Source of the DNA: Kaistella treverensis
GTDB taxonomy: Bacteria; Bacteroidota; Bacteroidia; Flavobacteriales; Weeksellaceae
Direction of reading: 5' to 3'
NCBI RefSeq assembly: GCF_900114045.1
Contig: NZ_FORQ01000002.1
Coordinates: 124,001-188,000, forward strand
DNA length: 64,000 bases
How positions within the stretch are numbered: position 1 is the first letter of the stretch; each line of letters begins with the position of its first letter. This document shows positions 6,633 through 56,313 of this stretch, one piece after another. The translations under genes and the position numbers were made by a program. The notes under the pieces were generated by a model. It saw nothing but the letters and a program-made list of their open reading frames with translations, did no database searches and was not told where the DNA came from.

Positions 6633-9023
6633 TTGTCAGAAAACTGTTTTCACTGCGGTCAGACGATTGACAGGGAGCGCATCACCTTCGATAACAAAGC
6701 CTTTTGCTGCAACGGGTGCAAATCGGTATTTGATATTCTGAATATGAACGATTTATGCAACTTTTATGAAATGAATAAAAGTTCCGGAATCCGGCCGAAT
6801 GATGAAAATATCGCACAGTTTGATTATCTGGACACGCCCGAAGTTTTCACCAAAGTCACCGATTTTTCTGAAGGTAATACAACCTTGGTAACTTTTAAAA
6901 TTCCGGTTATCCATTGTTCATCGTGCATTTGGCTGCTGGAGAGTCTTCAGACTTTGAACAACAACATTAACTATTCGCAGGTAAATTTTACCCGCAAAAA
7001 CGTGCAAATTTCCTTTAATCATAATGAGCTGAAATTAAGCGACCTCGCAAAATTTCTGACCAATCTCGGTTATAAACCGGTTGTTAATTTAGAAACTGCA
7101 GAGAAAAAGGAGGAATTTTTAGATAAAACTTTGATTGTAAAACTCGCGATTGCAGGTTTTGCTTTTGGAAACGGAATGTTCCTGAGTTATCCGGAATACG
7201 CCGAACAGGTCATGGGAACTACCGATTTCTGGATGGAAACGTACAAAAATCTTTTCCGCTTTATCATGTTCCTGTTAGCGACGCCGGTCGTGTTTTATTC
7301 AGCTTCAGATTATTTTAAATCAGCCTGGTTTGGCTTGAAAAATAAAATTGTAAACATTGATGTTCCGATTGTTTTGGGAATTTTAATGCTTTACGGCCGA
7401 AGTATTTACGAAGTTTTAACCGACTACGGACCGGGATATTTCGATACGCTGTGCGGACTGTTATTTTTCATGCTTTTGGGCAAACTTTTTCAGAAAAGAA
7501 CCTACAGCGCTTTGTCGTATGACCGCGATTACAAATCTTTTTATCCCATTGCGGTTACGAAAATCGATTTTAATGGAGAACAGAAAAATATCCTGCTAAA
7601 CGAGCTAAAAATTGGTGATCGCATCATGGTGCGAAACCAGGAAATTATTCCGGTGGATGTGATTCTTATTAAAGGTGAAGGAAACATCGATAACAGTTTT
7701 ATTACCGGTGAAAGTGCCTCCATTCCTAAAGAACCAGGCGATAAAATTTTTGCGGGCGGAAAACAAATCGGTTCTGTTCTGGAACTGGAGGTGATAAAAA
7801 CCGTGAACCAAAGTTACCTTACACAGCTTTGGAATAAAGAAGCTTTCAAAAAGTTTGAAACCGGACTGGACACCATTACGAACGATATCAGCAAATATTT
7901 CACTTTTATCATTCTGGGAATTACTTTGCTTGCAGGCATTTATTGGGCGCAGGTTGATTTCGAAAAAATGTTTCAGGTTGTGGCTGCGATTTTAATTGTG
8001 GCTTGTCCGTGTGCGCTTGCGCTTTCGGCACCATTTACTTTAGGCCATATTATGCGGATTTTAGGCCGGAATAAATTCTACGTAAAGGATACGCTGACTA
8101 TTGAAAAACTGGCAAAAATCGACACGCTAGTTTTTGATAAAACCGGAACAATTACGCACAATAAAGAAGCTAATATCAGCTATGAAGGGGAAACGATTTC
8201 AGAATTTGATCTGATTAACCTGAAAAGTCTATTGAAAAACTCAAACCATCCGCTTTCGAAAACTTTATACCAGCATTTGGAAGTGGTTGAAGAATATCTG
8301 CCGGTTGAAAATTTTGTGGAAACAGCCGGAAAAGGTTATTCCGGAACTGTTCGCGGAGAAATTTATAAAGTTGGTTCGGCGTCGTTTAATAATCAACCTT
8401 CAAAAAACCTGGAAACAGCGGTCTATATTTCAAAAAAAGACCGTTTTATGGGGAAATTTATTTTCACCAATGAATACCGTGAAAATATGTCGGAAATGTT
8501 CGCGCAGCTGAAAAATTTTCCGGTTCATATTTTAAGTGGTGATAATGCTTCTGAAGAAAGTTCGCTAAAAAGTTTAGTGCCGAATATCGCGGGAATGAAA
8601 TTCAACCAAAGCCCGGAAAACAAGCTGAATTATATTAAAGAACTTCAGGAAGAAAGTAGAAAAGTGGCGATGTTGGGCGACGGTCTGAATGACGCCGGCG
8701 CGCTGAAACAAAGTAATGTAGGAATAGCTGTGGCAGACGATACGCATTCATTCACGCCGTCGTCGGACGTGATTATGGCTGGAGAAAAAATGCGCTTTTT
8801 AAAGGATTATTTTGATTTGTCCAAGGACGCAATAAAAATCGTAAAATTTACGTTTGGAATAAGCTTCTTTTACAATATCATCGGTTTGAGCTTCGCAGTA
8901 ACGGGTCATCTTTCACCTTTGGTGGCAGCTATTCTGATGCCGATCAGTTCGATTACAGTGGTAATTTTCACCTCAGTTGCAACGTGGACGCGTTCCGGTA
9001 AGTACTTTAAAACCAATAAATAA
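6633..9023 (+). CDS. ccoI: cbb3-type copper-exporting P-type ATPase CcoI (FixI/CopA2-like)
   Basis: P1B-type ATPase of 796 aa that moves Cu(I) across the inner membrane for cbb3 oxidase assembly. It has an N-terminal zinc-ribbon-like Cys region (Cys5, Cys8, Cys25, Cys26, Cys29) typical of CcoI-type pumps and a heavy-metal-associated site HCSSC (Cys95, Cys98). The membrane CPC motif (VACPCALAL) is near residue 456, the phosphorylation site DKTGT near 501, the HP motif in SNHPLSK, and GDGLND near 681. The start is TTG at 6633; no ATG gives the Cys-rich N-terminus. It heads the cbb3 cluster. CcoI rather than a detoxifying CopA is inferred from the zinc-ribbon N-terminus and the operon. Confidence 0.95.
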   Translation: MSENCFHCGQTIDRERITFDNKAFCCNGCKSVFDILNMNDLCNFYEMNKSSGIRPNDENIAQFDYLDTPEVFTKVTDFSEGNTTLVTFKIPVIHCSSCIWLLESLQTLNNNINYSQVNFTRKNVQISFNHNELKLSDLAKFLTNLGYKPVVNLETAEKKEEFLDKTLIVKLAIAGFAFGNGMFLSYPEYAEQVMGTTDFWMETYKNLFRFIMFLLATPVVFYSASDYFKSAWFGLKNKIVNIDVPIVLGILMLYGRSIYEVLTDYGPGYFDTLCGLLFFMLLGKLFQKRTYSALSYDRDYKSFYPIAVTKIDFNGEQKNILLNELKIGDRIMVRNQEIIPVDVILIKGEGNIDNSFITGESASIPKEPGDKIFAGGKQIGSVLELEVIKTVNQSYLTQLWNKEAFKKFETGLDTITNDISKYFTFIILGITLLAGIYWAQVDFEKMFQVVAAILIVACPCALALSAPFTLGHIMRILGRNKFYVKDTLTIEKLAKIDTLVFDKTGTITHNKEANISYEGETISEFDLINLKSLLKNSNHPLSKTLYQHLEVVEEYLPVENFVETAGKGYSGTVRGEIYKVGSASFNNQPSKNLETAVYISKKDRFMGKFIFTNEYRENMSEMFAQLKNFPVHILSGDNASEESSLKSLVPNIAGMKFNQSPENKLNYIKELQEESRKVAMLGDGLNDAGALKQSNVGIAVADDTHSFTPSSDVIMAGEKMRFLKDYFDLSKDAIKIVKFTFGISFFYNIIGLSFAVTGHLSPLVAAILMPISSITVVIFTSVATWTRSGKYFKTNK

Positions 9024-9359: not shown

Positions 9360-11639
9360 ATGGAGACACAAAAGTTTAGTTATGATAATAACATTGTGCG
9401 GGCCTTTCTTTATGCAACCGTAGTCTTCGGGATTATTGGTTTTTTGCTGGGACTTACCGCCGCTTTAATGTTATTTTACCCCGAACTTCCTGAGTATTTC
9501 TTTGGGACAGATGATGCTACCATCGTCAGTTTACAAAGCGGTAATCTTCAGGGTTTAATTAATACCCATGGCGCTTTCGGTTTCGGCCGTATCAGAATGC
9601 TGCACACCAGTGCTGTAATTTTTGCCTTTGTTTGTAACGGCTTTTTCGCCGGTGCATATTACTCTTTGCAGAGATTATTGAAAACCAGAATGTACAGCGA
9701 CACTCTTTCCTGGATTCACTTCTGGGGATGGCAGTTGATGATCGTAGCAGTGGTTATTACATTCTTAATGGGGATCAACACTTCAAAAGAATATGCAGAG
9801 CACGAGTGGCCAATTGATATTTTAATTACTGTTATCTGGGTTGTTTTCGGAATTAACATGTTCGGAACAATCATCAAAAGAAGAGTTAGACACTTATACG
9901 TTGCTATTTGGTTCTATTTAGGGACCTGGGTGGCAATTGCGATGCTTCACATTTTCAACAACTTAGAAGTTCCTTTATCTTTCGCAGGTTGGAAATCTTA
10001 CTCAGCTTACGCAGGTGTTAAAGATGCTTTGGTTCAGTGGTGGTACGGCCACAATGCGGTAGCGTTTGTATTGACAACGCCAATCCTTGGTCTAATGTAT
10101 TATTTCTTACCAAAAGCAGCAGACAGACCCGTATTTTCATATAAACTGTCGATTATCCACTTCTGGTCGCTTATCTTCGTTTATATCTGGGCAGGACCAC
10201 ACCACTTACAGTATACTGCAATTCCTGGTTGGGCTCAGGCTTTAGCAACCGGTTTCTCCATCATGCTTATTGCACCGTCTTGGGGTGGTATGCTTAACGG
10301 ACTTCTTACATTAAGAGGTGCGTGGGATAAAGTAAGAGAAAACCCTGTATTAAAATTCTTCGTAGTAGCAATTACCTGTTATGGTATGGCGACTTTCGAA
10401 GGACCTTTATTGGCTACAAAAACATTAAATAAAATTGGTCACTATACCGATTGGGTTATTGGTCACGTTCATGTCGGAGCTTTAGGCTGGAACGGTTTCA
10501 TGACTTTCGGGATGATTTATTACCTCCTGCCAATTATGTGGAGAACCAAACTGTGGTCAGTAAAATTAGCTAACTGGCATTTCTGGCTAGGTACTTTAGG
10601 AATTATTTTCTATGCCGTGCCTTTATATATCGCTGGATTTACGCAAGGTTTAATGTGGAAACAGTTTAACCCAGACGGAACTTTAGTTTACAAAAACTGG
10701 TTAGATACTGTAACAGCGATTATCCCTTACTATCAAATGCGATTTGTGGGTGGTTTCCTTTACATTTCCGGAGCGATCCTGATGTGTGTGAACCTTGTTG
10801 CTACCGTAAGAAGCGGATCATTCCAGAAAGAAGTTCCTGCAGAAGCACCAGCTTTAGCAAAAATCAGCAATAAAAGAAAAGAAGGCGAAGGACTTCACCT
10901 TTGGATTGAAAGAATGCCGACTTTGCTTACAGTACTTTCATTTATTGCCGTTGCAATCGGAGGTTTCCTGGAAATTGTACCGACACTTACCATTAAAGAA
11001 AACGTACCGACTATAGCCGCGGTAAAACCTTATTCACCACTTGAACTGGAAGGTCGTGATTTATATATCCGCGAAGGCTGTAACTCTTGCCACTCGCAGA
11101 TGATCAGACCATTCCGAGACGAGGTTGTCAGATTCAACGGTAAAAACGGGCAATATTCCAAAGCAGGAGAATTTGTTTATGACAGACCTTTCCTTTGGGG
11201 TTCTAAAAGAACAGGTCCGGATTTGCACCGTGAAGGTGGTAAAAACCCAAGTTCATGGCACTATAAGCACATGTTGAACCCTAGAGTAACTTCTGCAGGT
11301 TCCATCATGCCAAGATATCCATGGTTGATTTCTCGTGACCTTGACCGCAGCCAGATGGTAGCTAAAGTTGAGTTGATGAAGAATACATTTGATGTTCCGT
11401 ACACACAGGCACAAATTGATTCCGCTGACTCATGGGCTGATAACCAGGCAAGCGCTATTGTGAAAGAAATTTATTCTGAAGCAGCTGACGTTAAAAAAGC
11501 TTATGAAGATAAAAAAGCCGCTGAAGGAGCCAATTTTACTCCTTTGGAGAAGAAAGAAATCGTAGCCTTGATTGCTTATCTGCAAAGACTTGGTACGGAT
11601 ATTAAAACAACAGAGATTAAAACGGCTAGCACCAATTAA
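9360..11639 (+). CDS. ccoNO: Fused cbb3 cytochrome oxidase subunits I and II (CcoNO)
   Basis: Catalytic subunit I fused to the mono-haem subunit II in one 759 aa chain. The CcoN part (about 1-480) has the low-spin haem His in RMLHTSAVI, the copper-site His in WYGHNAV, the adjacent His pair in GPHHLQY, and the distal His pair in GHVHVGALGWNGF. After a linker near 490-505 and one membrane helix comes the CcoO part with a c-type haem site CNSCH (about 571-575) followed by QMIRPF. It reduces oxygen to water at low oxygen tension and pumps protons across the inner membrane. The NO fusion is the usual arrangement in Bacteroidota. Confidence 0.97.
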   Translation: METQKFSYDNNIVRAFLYATVVFGIIGFLLGLTAALMLFYPELPEYFFGTDDATIVSLQSGNLQGLINTHGAFGFGRIRMLHTSAVIFAFVCNGFFAGAYYSLQRLLKTRMYSDTLSWIHFWGWQLMIVAVVITFLMGINTSKEYAEHEWPIDILITVIWVVFGINMFGTIIKRRVRHLYVAIWFYLGTWVAIAMLHIFNNLEVPLSFAGWKSYSAYAGVKDALVQWWYGHNAVAFVLTTPILGLMYYFLPKAADRPVFSYKLSIIHFWSLIFVYIWAGPHHLQYTAIPGWAQALATGFSIMLIAPSWGGMLNGLLTLRGAWDKVRENPVLKFFVVAITCYGMATFEGPLLATKTLNKIGHYTDWVIGHVHVGALGWNGFMTFGMIYYLLPIMWRTKLWSVKLANWHFWLGTLGIIFYAVPLYIAGFTQGLMWKQFNPDGTLVYKNWLDTVTAIIPYYQMRFVGGFLYISGAILMCVNLVATVRSGSFQKEVPAEAPALAKISNKRKEGEGLHLWIERMPTLLTVLSFIAVAIGGFLEIVPTLTIKENVPTIAAVKPYSPLELEGRDLYIREGCNSCHSQMIRPFRDEVVRFNGKNGQYSKAGEFVYDRPFLWGSKRTGPDLHREGGKNPSSWHYKHMLNPRVTSAGSIMPRYPWLISRDLDRSQMVAKVELMKNTFDVPYTQAQIDSADSWADNQASAIVKEIYSEAADVKKAYEDKKAAEGANFTPLEKKEIVALIAYLQRLGTDIKTTEIKTASTN

Positions 11640-52750: not shown

Positions 52751-54739
52751 CTAAAGACTGAAGTTTAAATTCAAATAAAAGTTTCGTCCGGGGCGCGGCA
52801 AATGGTTCCAGTCCGCGTAAGAAGTGTAATATCGGTTGAGTAAATTTTCAACACCGGCTTTCGCAAATAATTTGGTTTTACCAAAGCTGAAATTGTAGCC
52901 CGCGTTTAGATTTACAATAAAATACGCCGGAGTTTCGCTTTCACCATAATTTGCGGCAAAATTTCTGTGTTTTGAGTTTCCAGAAACTGAAGCTTCGGTA
53001 GAAAATTTGTTTTGAGCAAACCTCAGCGAACTCTGATAACTGAGCGGGCTCATAAACGGAAGATTTTGCCCGTCGCTGTCTTTTCCGCGCAGATATACGA
53101 TTTGCGAATTCCATCTTAAAAGTTCCAAAAGCTGAAAATCAGCGTTTAAACTGATATTAAAAACGTCCGCGCTTTCTAAAGCGGAATATTTTTTCAGACC
53201 GCGTGCACCAATTGTCATCGGAACCAAACCTTGCACAATATTTCCCACGATATAGTCGGAGATTTTGAAATAAGACGAAGCCAGTTTCAGTTTATAATTT
53301 TTCTGTTTTAAACCTAAAAAAGCGTTTGCTTCAAACGACGTTTCATTTTTTAAACCCGGACTTCCGATGTAGTCGAATTTTTCAAAACTGTTGAAAAGAT
53401 AAAACCCGTAACCTTCGGAAACAGACGGCGCGCGGTCGCCATAACCCAAGCCAAAACCAGCTTCAAAGCCATTTTTTTCGAAATTGTAATTTGCAGCTAA
53501 ACTTTTTAGAAAGCGGGTTTTTTCGGCATTCATTTCGGGATAAAAAATCTGCAGGCTGCTTAATCCAAAATCGCTTTCGACTTTGTTTTGATGCAAAGTT
53601 GCAGAAGCAGAAAATTTAACGTCAGAATGCTCATTTATTTGAATTTTATCTTCCAGAAAAACAGTATGTGCAAGCGTTCCGACTTCCGGCCAAGTCAGCA
53701 TAAACATCAGTTTTTCAGTTTTATCATTCGGATACATCGTCATTTCCGCGCGTGATTTATTGTAATATCCGGTACCGTTTAACAGAAAATTGTGCTGTTT
53801 AGCAGCGAATTTTAGTTGCGAATAATAACCAACGGTGGTGCTCCAGCCCGGCATATCCATGTGAATTTGCGTGTCGGGTCTTTTTGTATCGTCCATGCGG
53901 TGGGTGATAGTATTATAATAAATTTTAGTTTCCCAACTTTTCAGAAAATCGTTTTGCGGTAAAACCTGAAATTTCAACGAAGTGATGAGCGCTTCCGCAA
54001 GCGAAACATCCATCGGCAGTGCGGGATAACCAACATCGGTGGCTTTGTCATAAATTATTGAAGCTTCAAGAAGTTTATTCTCCGCTATTTTTGCGCCTGA
54101 AATGGCAGAAATATTCATTTTTTTAAACTGCGAGTATGGAATTTCCTGGTTATTTCCGGCTTTATAATTTTCAGCATCGCGCAACATAAAATTTACGTCG
54201 CTGTAAAATTGCGCGGTTTTATATTTCGCGCCGGCACCGAAAATTTTCTGAAGATTTACGCTTTCGAAACCGGTGTTCAGGTTAAAATTCCACTGCTCTT
54301 TTCCAAAAACTGATTTATTTCGCTTTAAATCAATAGAGCCGCCGATGGTGTTTCCGTGGCACGCGCCTCCTTGCCCGGAACTGATTTCAGCTTCCTGCAA
54401 ATTCGAAATTTCCACATAAGACGTGATCGGATCCATTTTGTCGGTACACGCACCGAAAATCCGCATTCCATCGATGGTTACCAAAGTTCTTTCTGTGGGC
54501 AAACCGTTAATCTGCGGTTCCCAGGCATAGGCGCCGCGCTTTATCATATCTACTTTCGCCGATTTCTGCAAATATTCATCAATAGAACCCAGAGGTTTAT
54601 TTTCTTTAGCGGAAAGTTTCGCAGTGCCAATAACAATTACTTCCTGAATGTGGTGAAGATTGCCGGAATCAAGCTGCAGCTGCGCATTTATATTTAAAGA
54701 AAAAAGGGCAAAACAGGGCAAAAAAATTAAATTTTTCAT
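52751..54739 (-). CDS. TonB-dependent receptor, OprC-like with CxxxM copper site
   Basis: A 662 aa outer-membrane receptor: signal peptide (to about residue 19), plug domain (about 30-150) and a 22-strand-type barrel ending in FYLNLNFSL with a terminal aromatic/hydrophobic pattern. The plug carries IFGACTDKMDP, i.e. Cys98-x3-Met102, the same arrangement as the copper-binding Cys/Met pair of Pseudomonas OprC (family TonB-dependent copper receptor). A nearby extra Cys127-His128 is also present. It probably imports copper across the outer membrane using TonB. Downstream of the Met-rich lipoprotein and small Cys protein genes. Confidence 0.9.
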   Translation of the reverse strand: MKNLIFLPCFALFSLNINAQLQLDSGNLHHIQEVIVIGTAKLSAKENKPLGSIDEYLQKSAKVDMIKRGAYAWEPQINGLPTERTLVTIDGMRIFGACTDKMDPITSYVEISNLQEAEISSGQGGACHGNTIGGSIDLKRNKSVFGKEQWNFNLNTGFESVNLQKIFGAGAKYKTAQFYSDVNFMLRDAENYKAGNNQEIPYSQFKKMNISAISGAKIAENKLLEASIIYDKATDVGYPALPMDVSLAEALITSLKFQVLPQNDFLKSWETKIYYNTITHRMDDTKRPDTQIHMDMPGWSTTVGYYSQLKFAAKQHNFLLNGTGYYNKSRAEMTMYPNDKTEKLMFMLTWPEVGTLAHTVFLEDKIQINEHSDVKFSASATLHQNKVESDFGLSSLQIFYPEMNAEKTRFLKSLAANYNFEKNGFEAGFGLGYGDRAPSVSEGYGFYLFNSFEKFDYIGSPGLKNETSFEANAFLGLKQKNYKLKLASSYFKISDYIVGNIVQGLVPMTIGARGLKKYSALESADVFNISLNADFQLLELLRWNSQIVYLRGKDSDGQNLPFMSPLSYQSSLRFAQNKFSTEASVSGNSKHRNFAANYGESETPAYFIVNLNAGYNFSFGKTKLFAKAGVENLLNRYYTSYADWNHLPRPGRNFYLNLNFSL

Positions 54740-54858
54740 AGGAAATGTCGTATAACTTTCCGCTGTAATTTTTGAAAAAAATGCTTCTAAAGCAGGGTAT
54801 AAATTCCCGCGATTTAATTCAACGAAAAGATTAGTTTTGAAAAAGTGTGTGCTAAATT

Positions 54859-55719
54859 TTAGAAATCAAGTTCAAAAAATAGAGAGCTCGCAGGATTAGC
54901 GTCTGTCACATCTTCACCTTTTAGCACTACTCCACGTTGATTCAGCAACTGTAAATTAATTTTCCAGTAACCGGTCATTGTTAAGGACATTTTTCCTTTG
55001 TAAAGTCCGCCGGCGGCTGATTGCGTTGCTGCGACATTGTTCGGTGAACTGTGATTTCCCATTCCCGGCATGCGCGGATCGAGTTTCACGCTGAGACCTT
55101 CTGCCACAGGATAACTCATCATGTCCTGCATTTTCCAGACACCGATTGTTACGTCATTTGTCGCCACTTTTGGTGAAATTGGCTCAACGTAAGCCACGAT
55201 ATATTTCACATTATCACTTCCAACAATTACATTCACTGTTTTTTTGATTGAAGCTGGAACAGACAAATTTCCAGTTGCAGAAAAATCTGCAGTTCCAATC
55301 GAATAGTCGATTTTTAAATTCCAGAATTCCATATTATTTTCCGGCATTTGAAAAACCATATAACCGCCATAAATTGTCGCGTCTTTCAATGTATTCTGCA
55401 ATTCAGATTTCGGACAAGAATGTGTCATATTCATCATGTTCATCAGCGGTGTCCATTTTACATTCGCCGGTGTTTCGTACTGATTAGTTGCTTTGTTTTT
55501 AAAGCGAAGTTTCAAATCATTATAGCCCAATTGCGTGGTTCCGGTTTTGGAATAGAGTTCTATAATATGTGTTTCGTTGGTGATTTCTTTGATTTTAAGA
55601 AAGCCGTTGAGCTCGGTGTTTGTGGTTGGAATTATTTCATCGGAATCTGAAGTCCGACACGAGATAACAAGGAAAGCCAATGCCAGAAAGGCAAAAATAT
55701 TTTTAAGGGAAAATTTCAT
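54859..55719 (-). CDS. Met-rich lipoprotein with FixH/YtkA-like C-terminal domain
   Basis: A 286 aa lipoprotein (Cys21). Soft-metal ligands cluster at LMNMMNMTHSC (92-102), KMQDMM (197-201) and DPRMPGMGNH (214-223). The C-terminal stretch (about 210-260) resembles the YtkA/FixH fold pattern: MPGMG, then LYKGKMSLTMTGYWKI. Placed between a small Cys/His/Met protein and an OprC-like receptor, it is likely a periplasm-facing copper-binding protein. The family assignment is from pattern only. A 7-of-8 -7 box (TATATTTA, 55731-55738) lies just upstream. Confidence 0.75.
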   Translation of the reverse strand: MKFSLKNIFAFLALAFLVISCRTSDSDEIIPTTNTELNGFLKIKEITNETHIIELYSKTGTTQLGYNDLKLRFKNKATNQYETPANVKWTPLMNMMNMTHSCPKSELQNTLKDATIYGGYMVFQMPENNMEFWNLKIDYSIGTADFSATGNLSVPASIKKTVNVIVGSDNVKYIVAYVEPISPKVATNDVTIGVWKMQDMMSYPVAEGLSVKLDPRMPGMGNHSSPNNVAATQSAAGGLYKGKMSLTMTGYWKINLQLLNQRGVVLKGEDVTDANPASSLFFELDF

Positions 55720-55753
55720 TTTGATAGTTTTAAATATAACATGAGGTAAGCCG

Positions 55754-55796
55754 TTTCTTTTTGATAAAAAGAAAATAGCTGCTTATTTAATAAGCA
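55754..55796. repeat. Two adjacent inverted repeats in the copper locus
   Basis: TTTCTTTTT/AAAAAGAAA (55754-55774, 3-base loop) and TGCTTATT/AATAAGCA (55780-55796, 1-base centre). They lie in the 98-base gap between the small Cys protein gene and the lipoprotein gene and could be operator or attenuator structures. Confidence 0.45.
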
Positions 55797-55817
55797 TTGA
55801 AAAAACGGATGTTGATG

Positions 55818-56180
55818 TTATATTTGCGGCGGATGCGGCAGAATTCCTGGAATGTATTCCGCTAAAAACTGGTCTTGATACGAAAATGTGGAAATTTCAG
55901 CATCGAAGCGCGCCTCTTTAATTATTGAAAAATTTGCCACTTTAGCCGGTAAAATATTGAACTCAAAAGAGTATTTCACCAAACTGAAAAAATTAGCCGT
56001 TTTTTCGCCATTTTTTTTCATTTGACATTTTCCGTGACAATCCATTTCCGGCTTGGTTTTATTGACGCAATAAATTTCATAAAAATCCCGGTTGATTTTA
56101 TAGTCCAGCATAAACAAACCATCGCCGAAACTTGCGCCGAAAATAATGATTGAAAGAAGTAAGCTTATTGCCGGTTTCAT
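55818..56180 (-). CDS. Small exported protein with Cys/His/Met cluster
   Basis: A 120 aa protein with an N-terminal signal or anchor helix (about 4-20) and a metal-ligand cluster: Cys38, Met46, Cys48-His49, Cys52, Met54 (CHGKCQM). The C-terminal half is unremarkable and ends YIPGILPHPP. First gene of the copper-receptor transcript with a -7 box at 56188-56195. Family not named; copper binding is inferred from ligands and neighbours. A segment (55928-55958) resembles the dispersed palindromic repeat. Confidence 0.7.
   Translation of the reverse strand: MKPAISLLLSIIIFGASFGDGLFMLDYKINRDFYEIYCVNKTKPEMDCHGKCQMKKNGEKTANFFSLVKYSFEFNILPAKVANFSIIKEARFDAEISTFSYQDQFLAEYIPGILPHPPQI
55928..55958. repeat. 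Palindromic-repeat-like segment inside the small Cys-protein gene
   Basis: Reads AAAAATTTGCCACTTTAGCC and continues GGTAAAATATT; on the minus strand it encodes ILPAKVANFS. Note that the similar meaB segment also encodes ANFS. Confidence 0.35.
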
Positions 56181-56187
56181 GATAGAG

Positions 56188-56195
56188 CAAATTTA
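56188..56195 (-). promoter_or_regulatory. -7 promoter box for the copper locus
   Basis: Minus-strand TAAATTTG, full match, ending 7 bases before the ATG at 56180, so the message would have almost no leader. Confidence 0.55.
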
Positions 56196-56313
56196 AGACT
56201 AAATGCTCTGAATTAAAAAATGACTTTCATCAGCACTCTTACTCCTAGTTTTGGTAACTGACCGAATTAACTCTGTAATATTTTTTATCTTTAACAATTG
56301 AAAAATAAAAAAA

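Follow-up and report, generated by a model that had tools for sequence, protein, structure and literature searches.

The locus described here occupies positions 52,751 to 56,195 of a 64,000-nucleotide stretch of DNA from Kaistella treverensis (Bacteroidota; contig NZ_FORQ01000002.1, positions 124,001 to 188,000 of the forward strand), which was analysed as a whole and is referred to below as the window. Three genes lie there on the minus strand and are read in the order small cysteine-containing protein, lipoprotein and TonB-dependent receptor, with gaps of 98 nucleotides (nt) between the first two and 119 nt between the last two. We consider it likely that they form a copper-scavenging operon of the Bacteroidota headed by its own copper sensor, the small gene serving as an upstream open reading frame (uORF). 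The features concerned are as follows.

56188..56195, minus strand: -7 promoter box TAAATTTG, ending 7 nt upstream of the uORF ATG
55818..56180, minus strand: uORF for the small Cys protein, 120 residues, hydrophobic N-terminus, CutF/CruR-like
56025..56069, minus strand: codons C38 to C52 (CVNKTKPEMDCHGKC), C-x9-C-x3-C, with C38, C48, G50 and C52 invariant in 23/23 proteins
55827..55832, minus strand: codons P117 and P118, C-terminal Pro-Pro (PHPPQI-stop), predicted pause site, with P117 invariant in 23/23 proteins
55815..55825, minus strand: RNA helix, 5' arm, with the uORF stop codon (55818-55820) inside it
55751..55808, minus strand: predicted inner helices within the outer helix, from the single-sequence fold of the window and absent from the RNAalifold consensus
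55732..55742, minus strand: RNA helix, 3' arm, 12 nt ahead of the lipoprotein ATG
54859..55719, minus strand: lipoprotein, 286 residues, with a YtkA-like domain and an acidic stretch past the lipobox Cys
52751..54739, minus strand: OprC-like TonB-dependent receptor, 662 residues
54434..54448, minus strand: receptor codons C98 to M102, CxxxM, aligned with OprC C143/M147
53894..53902, minus strand: receptor codons H280 to M282, HxM, aligned with OprC H323/M325

The small gene and the stop-codon helix

A preliminary description of this DNA had taken the small protein for an exported relay of copper and had named six of its residues, C38, M46, C48, H49, C52 and M54. All six are present, but only three of them, C38, C48 and C52, are invariant; across 23 diverse members of the family the invariant columns are C38, C48, G50, C52 and P117, the last of which belongs to a C-terminal Pro-Pro that had been overlooked. 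Mean conservation is 0.70 in the Cys motif, 0.23 in residues 81-110 and 0.51 in the last ten residues. The family comprises 2,848 matching proteins, and among the 120 relatives listed no Pfam domain was found in any and the names are hypothetical or uncharacterized. Adenovirus fibre, the top Pfam match for the small protein itself, is noise (expectation value, E, 0.16).

Homologues of the small protein were found in 105 of 296 genomes that sample the phylum evenly, with matches used down to E 3.5e-8, except for genome G060. We read 120 genomic contexts and called 122 uORFs, 112 of which have a same-strand gene within 400 nt; a few of these calls are truncated frames (L069, for example), and seven of the 120 loci gave no uORF by the open reading frame caller (L119, L140, L144, L147, L180, L206 and L209). 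To avoid circularity in testing the Pro-Pro, the profile was rebuilt from the N-terminal 72 residues. A Pro-Pro within the last 15 residues was then found in 97 of 98 non-training matches to this profile, compared with 2 of 309 neighbouring proteins. In 114 proteins the residue preceding the Pro-Pro is His in 53, Pro in 23 and Arg in 18, the motif being FHPP in 44 and FRPP in 16, and the distance from the last Cys to the Pro-Pro is 61-73 residues (10-90% range 64-69). As the Pro-Pro codons vary synonymously among congeners, the pair appears to be kept at the peptide level. Two relatives of the uORF, at L195 (5468-5872) and L285, lack a C-terminal Pro-Pro and are perhaps degenerate or mis-called.

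By the rules used for CutF-like proteins, the small protein has 120 residues (below 150), the C-terminal end PHPPQI, a same-strand gene 98 nt downstream (below 1,000 nt) and C48-x3-C52, and its N-terminus is hydrophobic as judged by eye. Thus, it looks like a cis-acting copper-sensing uORF, of which the cis action and the copper response are predictions from these marks.

The first gene after the 122 uORFs encodes MbnP in 32 contexts, a CxxxM receptor in 22, a YtkA lipoprotein in 13, another receptor of that type in five and some other protein in 40, and in ten there is none. MbnP and MbnH genes are linked to copper. Pfam was also run on 20 proteins, some of them not first genes, picked from among the other contexts, and families found included receptors, PepSY_TM, SCO1, PCuAC, COX1, YHS and SOD. 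Related uORFs adjoin a YHS-domain gene at L124 and a SOD-like gene at L075 and L129, with similar-sized genes following in L120, L121 and L142; these loci are possibly another metal-stress operon.

The end of the uORF and the start of the lipoprotein gene are joined by RNA pairing. In the window the two helix arms are exactly complementary over 11 nt (11 bp), and the junction folds with a z score of -3.69; five relatives gave -5.18, -5.32, -3.06 (with the receptor directly downstream), and two weaker values of -1.64 and -2.06. The helix was tested as the longest pairing against shuffles of the downstream arm at the 5% level, in 91 phylum cases (L115-L214, gap 25-400 nt), 25 congeners (excluding L020, for which no start was located, though it was entered by coordinates in the codon comparison) and 73 of the 80 loci of a named set, which holds the best 80 of at least 578 receptor relatives from a contig scan. 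It was significant and lay over the stop codon in 15 of the 25 congeners and in 21 of the 91 phylum cases, a count that shifts with the random shuffles (19/91 in one run, 21/91 in another) and comes from phylogenetically non-independent cases, the 19 significant ones spanning six family labels. Six of 225 control adjacent gene pairs were significant, one of these over the stop codon (Fisher exact test on the 5% counts, 21/91 vs 6/225, 4.5e-8). Among the named loci 18 of 73 were significant, all over the stop codon, and 16 of 64 when nine Kaistella/Chryseobacterium loci were taken out. For the phylum set, duplex energy did less well as a test than helix length (11/91 at 5%); for the congeners it gave 14/25.

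Furthermore, an RNAalifold consensus of 15 congeners contains the stop-codon helix only, and four of its nine pairs have changed on both sides. In a 10-pair version of the helix 84% of cells pair, compared with 26-45% when the partner is shifted by 1-3 columns. The covariation score is 0.235, whereas the shuffled mean is 0.126 and none of 500 shuffles reaches 0.235, although related sequences may exceed such shuffles without any structure.

These results bear on two other ways in which the small gene might act. It could be a cis-acting copper uORF that works through Rho-dependent termination, with the helix secondary; CruR of Bordetella works by Rho (PMC9426467), and in 70 of the 91 phylum cases the helix falls short of significance by itself. 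However, the helix shows covariation and clusters at uORF junctions, and we regard the Rho route as unlikely here. The small protein could instead be a periplasmic Cu(I) chaperone that carries copper inward from the receptor, for which the hydrophobic N-terminus would suit export, while the three invariant Cys residues and the copper genes that often adjoin it would fit as well. Such a role is improbable, as residues 81-110 are nearly unconserved in comparison with the last ten, the almost constant Pro-Pro has no obvious function in a chaperone, the RNA pairing ties the stop codon to the next start, and the family precedes differing gene sets. It is because of the Pro-Pro, the Cys-to-Pro-Pro spacing and the helix, all of which point to a uORF, that the relay proposed in the preliminary description has been set aside.

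The -7 box that had been noted ahead of the first gene is indeed present, as TAAATTTG 7 nt from the ATG. In the Kaistella set, 28 of 29 loci have a TAnnTTTG box 5-10 nt ahead of the uORF start, and this position suggests that the mRNA of these loci is almost leaderless; the box is rarer in the wider sets, where it was found within 80 nt of the start in 32 of 47 named-set loci and 25 of 52 phylum-set loci. Just upstream of it, a congener-conserved stretch (56196-56225, minus strand) contains a partial inverted repeat around AAGACT...AGTCTTAA and may be a regulator site. The promoter motif RGTCTTAAWTTTG was considered as the mark of a copper regulon and rejected: it occurs once in the window's genome, at this locus, compared with 2 and 2 for the reversed control, and since it is no commoner than that control no regulon was seen with it in this genome.

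The receptor, the lipoprotein and their conservation

The receptor carries C98-TDK-M102 within ACTDKMDP in its plug, and the likeness of this CxxxM to that of OprC, which the preliminary description had pointed out, is borne out; the HxM half of the site (H280 and M282) and Met243 had escaped notice. By alignment the copper site of OprC is complete, C98, M102, H280 and M282 corresponding to OprC C143, M147, H323 and M325, which bind copper in the crystal (PMC8610252). These four residues are invariant in 37 of 37 receptors, the window's included (28 of its own type and nine of a second type, described below). M243, invariant in 26/26, aligns with OprC Met286, and M294 and M296 align with Met339 and Met341, all three being residues of the methionine track described for OprC (PMC8610252). 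ACTDKMDP was found in 78 of the 80 named receptors, the other two giving no match in the stretch scanned. When solved structures were searched by sequence, all six relatives found were OprC, and in a Foldseek search with the predicted model OprC took ranks 1-28 of the 50 PDB matches listed (template modelling score, TM, 0.78-0.84), with 18-19% identity in the structural alignments. The score against TIGR01778 lies under the cut-off of that model, and we therefore name the receptor OprC-like and not a TIGR01778 equivalog. As had been proposed, it is very probably a copper importer, an assignment well supported by its sequence.

The lipoprotein has the Met clusters and the YtkA-like tail previously ascribed to it, Pfam YtkA scoring 27.7 bits against a gathering cut-off of 25.9. 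The clusters comprise M93, M95, M96 and M98 with H100 and C102; M197, M200 and M201; and M217 and M220 with H223. C21 (the lipobox Cys), M217, M220, H223 and M248 are invariant in 37 of 37 lipoproteins, and the N-terminal Met cluster is retained in most, with exceptions that include L078, L116, L149 and L162. The predicted model is good (predicted local distance difference test, pLDDT, 88.7) and consists largely of beta strands, and among the 50 listed matches there was no close solved structure, only weak beta-sandwich matches (TM at most 0.30). It is plausible, from these Met and His residues, that the lipoprotein is the copper-capturing partner of the receptor. By analogy with the receptor-lipoprotein pairs of the phylum, such as the B12 complexes, it probably sits on the cell surface.

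The three-gene cassette is present in 24 of 36 congeneric genomes (its own included), which is more than chance. The lipoprotein and the close receptor share the same 24 genomes, the small gene is always there and the order is unchanged; homologues of the small protein occur in 33 of the 36, the one in congener G018 being 89% identical to the window's. The lipoprotein adjoins the receptor in all 28 lipoprotein matches, and in the 13 contexts where a YtkA lipoprotein comes first after the uORF, a CxxxM receptor is next in all 13. The conservation of the CxxxM pair in close homologues and the linkage of both smaller genes to such receptors, which the preliminary description had put forward as checks, were both found. 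In the named set all 78 loci with sufficient flank have the lipoprotein, and the uORF was recognized by profile in 66 of 75 and by eye in eight of the remaining nine, without an early ATG; at L236 it was found neither by profile nor by eye. Those eight frames would need a GTG, TTG or other start (L223, L242, L263, L276, L277, L279, L283 and L284).

In three loci (L149, L162 and L116) a uORF, YtkA lipoprotein and OprC-like receptor continue into MbnP, placing two copper systems in one cluster; MbnH joins MbnP in L149 and L162, and L116 has a second uORF ahead of MbnP.

The small gene lies immediately ahead of a different receptor (24-27% identity) in eight congeners that lack the cassette, as does a second copy of it in one more. 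Two of these nine second-type receptors were compared with NCBIfam models and gave 242 and 215 bits with TIGR01778, below its cut-off. NosZ is encoded in six of the nine loci (the family was confirmed for one), in three loci with the window-type cassette (L079, L083 and L084), and inside the flank examined in 17 of the 80 named loci; the window's own genome encodes NosZ on another contig. The window itself contains cbb3 oxidase subunits (COX1 and FixO) at 9360-11639, about 41 kb from the locus, and a P-type ATPase at 6633-9023, about 44 kb away, the name CcoI for the latter being that of the preliminary description. The delivery of copper to cbb3 that was suggested there is a tentative proposal from this co-location, about 41 kb apart, and NosZ is the cuproenzyme encoded near the genes in some relatives.

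That the receptor imports some other ligand (haem, zinc or a chelate) and that the link to copper is incidental would accord with the nearly equal score of a haem model (TIGR01785) and with the import of chelated copper by CrtA receptors (PMC12914433), but is improbable given the four OprC ligands invariant in 37/37, the NosZ genes near 17 of the 80 named loci and the copper families among uORF-linked genes elsewhere.

How the operon may work

What the sequences show is the residues of the binding site, the cassette, the Pro-Pro and a covarying helix, and on these we base the following account, in which the copper ligand, the pause, the direction of regulation and the surface location of the lipoprotein are predictions. 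The receptor would bind copper at its OprC-type CxxxM-HxM site and import it using TonB energy, and the Met/His-rich lipoprotein would gather copper and pass it to the receptor. When copper is scarce, the ribosome translating the uORF would pause at the C-terminal Pro-Pro and cover the stop-codon arm of the helix, so that the start of the lipoprotein gene stays open; given the usual ribosome footprint, most of the 5' arm would be hidden once the P site has reached the Pro-Pro codons. Copper bound by the emerging Cys motif would relieve the pause, the ribosome would depart, and the helix would then shut over the start region and turn the import genes off. As the downstream genes are importers, we expect the operon to be on at low copper and off at high copper, the direction of CruR by analogy and the opposite of that of CutF. 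Of the uptake-and-relay route in the preliminary description, the receptor therefore stands (site in 37/37), the lipoprotein is a plausible partner (Met/His in 37/37) and the relay by the small protein is not supported.

Several points weigh against this account. The helix is individually significant in only 21/91 phylum cases and 18/73 named loci, and the number of its pairs with changes on both sides is within the range of shuffles (77/500). The 20 proteins from other contexts also include DUF2911, BNR, Phenol_MetA_deg, beta-lactamase and SOD, with two lacking a match, so that among those examined the link to copper is frequent and not universal. The receptor misses the TIGR01778 equivalog cut-off by far (94.2 vs 472.45 bits), its score with the haem model TIGR01785 is nearly the same (90.6 bits), and the plug about its Cys/Met/His site is modelled with low confidence, residues 61-86 and 99-107 having pLDDT below 50. 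The surface-export signal of Bacteroidetes is a polar residue followed by Asp or Glu just past the lipobox Cys (PMC5080379), and CRTSDSDE in the lipoprotein is similar but acidic from +5, later than the consensus of +2 to +6. Lastly, PHPP and F[HR]PP differ from RAPP/RGPP, and a survey of RAPP/RGPP uORFs gives its Cu-related class as absent from the Bacteroidota and its TonB-related class as universal in Gram-negatives (PMC12992588).

More broadly, we would tentatively suggest that a class of copper-sensing arrest peptides is peculiar to the Bacteroidota, many of them with F[HR]PP at the end, about 65 residues after CxxxC. A clamp between stop codon and next start would let them act on copper importers with no need of a Shine-Dalgarno sequence or Rho, and this switch would be common to OprC-, MbnP/MbnH- and PepSY-type operons. 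Copper uptake in this phylum, on which cbb3 oxidase and the N2O-destroying NosZ depend, appears little studied (we found one genome survey). A receptor-lipoprotein pair is now defined, with predicted ligands, and a function is proposed for a small-protein family of 2,848 matching proteins. The account is also testable, and it offers a way in which metal sensing by a nascent chain could be coupled to initiation in a phylum that is largely without Shine-Dalgarno starts.

Relation to known systems

The system is already known in kind, as a CutF/CruR-like copper uORF and an OprC-like receptor. The preliminary description knew of no comparable three-gene system in Bacteroidota, which was too strong: the flavobacterium Bizionia is already reported to have an OprC-like CxxxM-HxM receptor (PMC11213822), and a three-gene operon that begins with a uORF of this sort, cruR-crtA-crpH, has been described in Bordetella (PMC9426467, PMC13038864). 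In the open-licence literature that we searched we did not find an operon that joins a uORF and a YtkA lipoprotein to a receptor like OprC, the F[HR]PP signature at its fixed spacing, or the stop-codon clamp. Another survey describes clusters of Pro-ending uORFs before sec genes, given there as occurring only in Bacteroidota (PMC10987492).

In Bordetella, CruR heads a copper-receptor operon that copper turns off (PMC9426467), and the likeness to the CruR-CrtA-CrpH system (DUF2946) lies in a uORF ahead of such an operon. However, CruR is described with CXXC, RAPP, a spacing of 45 residues and dependence on Rho, whereas the window's uORF has CxxxC and PHPPQI. Membership of DUF2946/CruR was accordingly rejected, as the small protein gave no match to PF11162 (DUF2946) at E up to 1, nor did any protein of the window's genome. 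CrtA is also described as having no conserved Cys or Met (PMC12914433), unlike the receptor in the window. At L145, L207 and L163 a uORF of the same family leads into genes for a receptor and PepSY_TM, an echo of the Bordetella operon; Pfam was run on both genes at L145 and L207 and on the PepSY_TM gene at L163.

The same uORF family also leads to MbnP/MbnH, MbnP being the first gene in 32 of 122 contexts, and the window's lipoprotein is of the YtkA type and not MbnP. With OprC/NosA of Pseudomonas, which are TonB-dependent copper importers, the window's receptor has in common the CxxxM-HxM site, the Met286 track residue and the fold; it differs in being paired with a lipoprotein in an operon headed by a uORF. 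CutF of Rhodobacter carries a signal sequence together with CxxxC and a C-terminal Pro-Pro; it works solely in cis, opening a stem-loop that covers the next start (PMC9973294). The published list of CutF-like proteins has 5,334 members, with Bacteroidota making up 40% when normalised and 19% otherwise (PMC9973294), and from that share relatives of the window's uORF are very probably among them. The small gene resembles them in its size, CxxxC, Pro-Pro in the last 15 residues, same-strand gene downstream and RNA structure over the next start, and its hydrophobic N-terminus may be an export signal like theirs. However, CutF responds to copper by raising an oxidase, and a Shine-Dalgarno sequence is hidden in its stem-loop, whereas in the window importers lie downstream and the helix takes in the stop codon itself.

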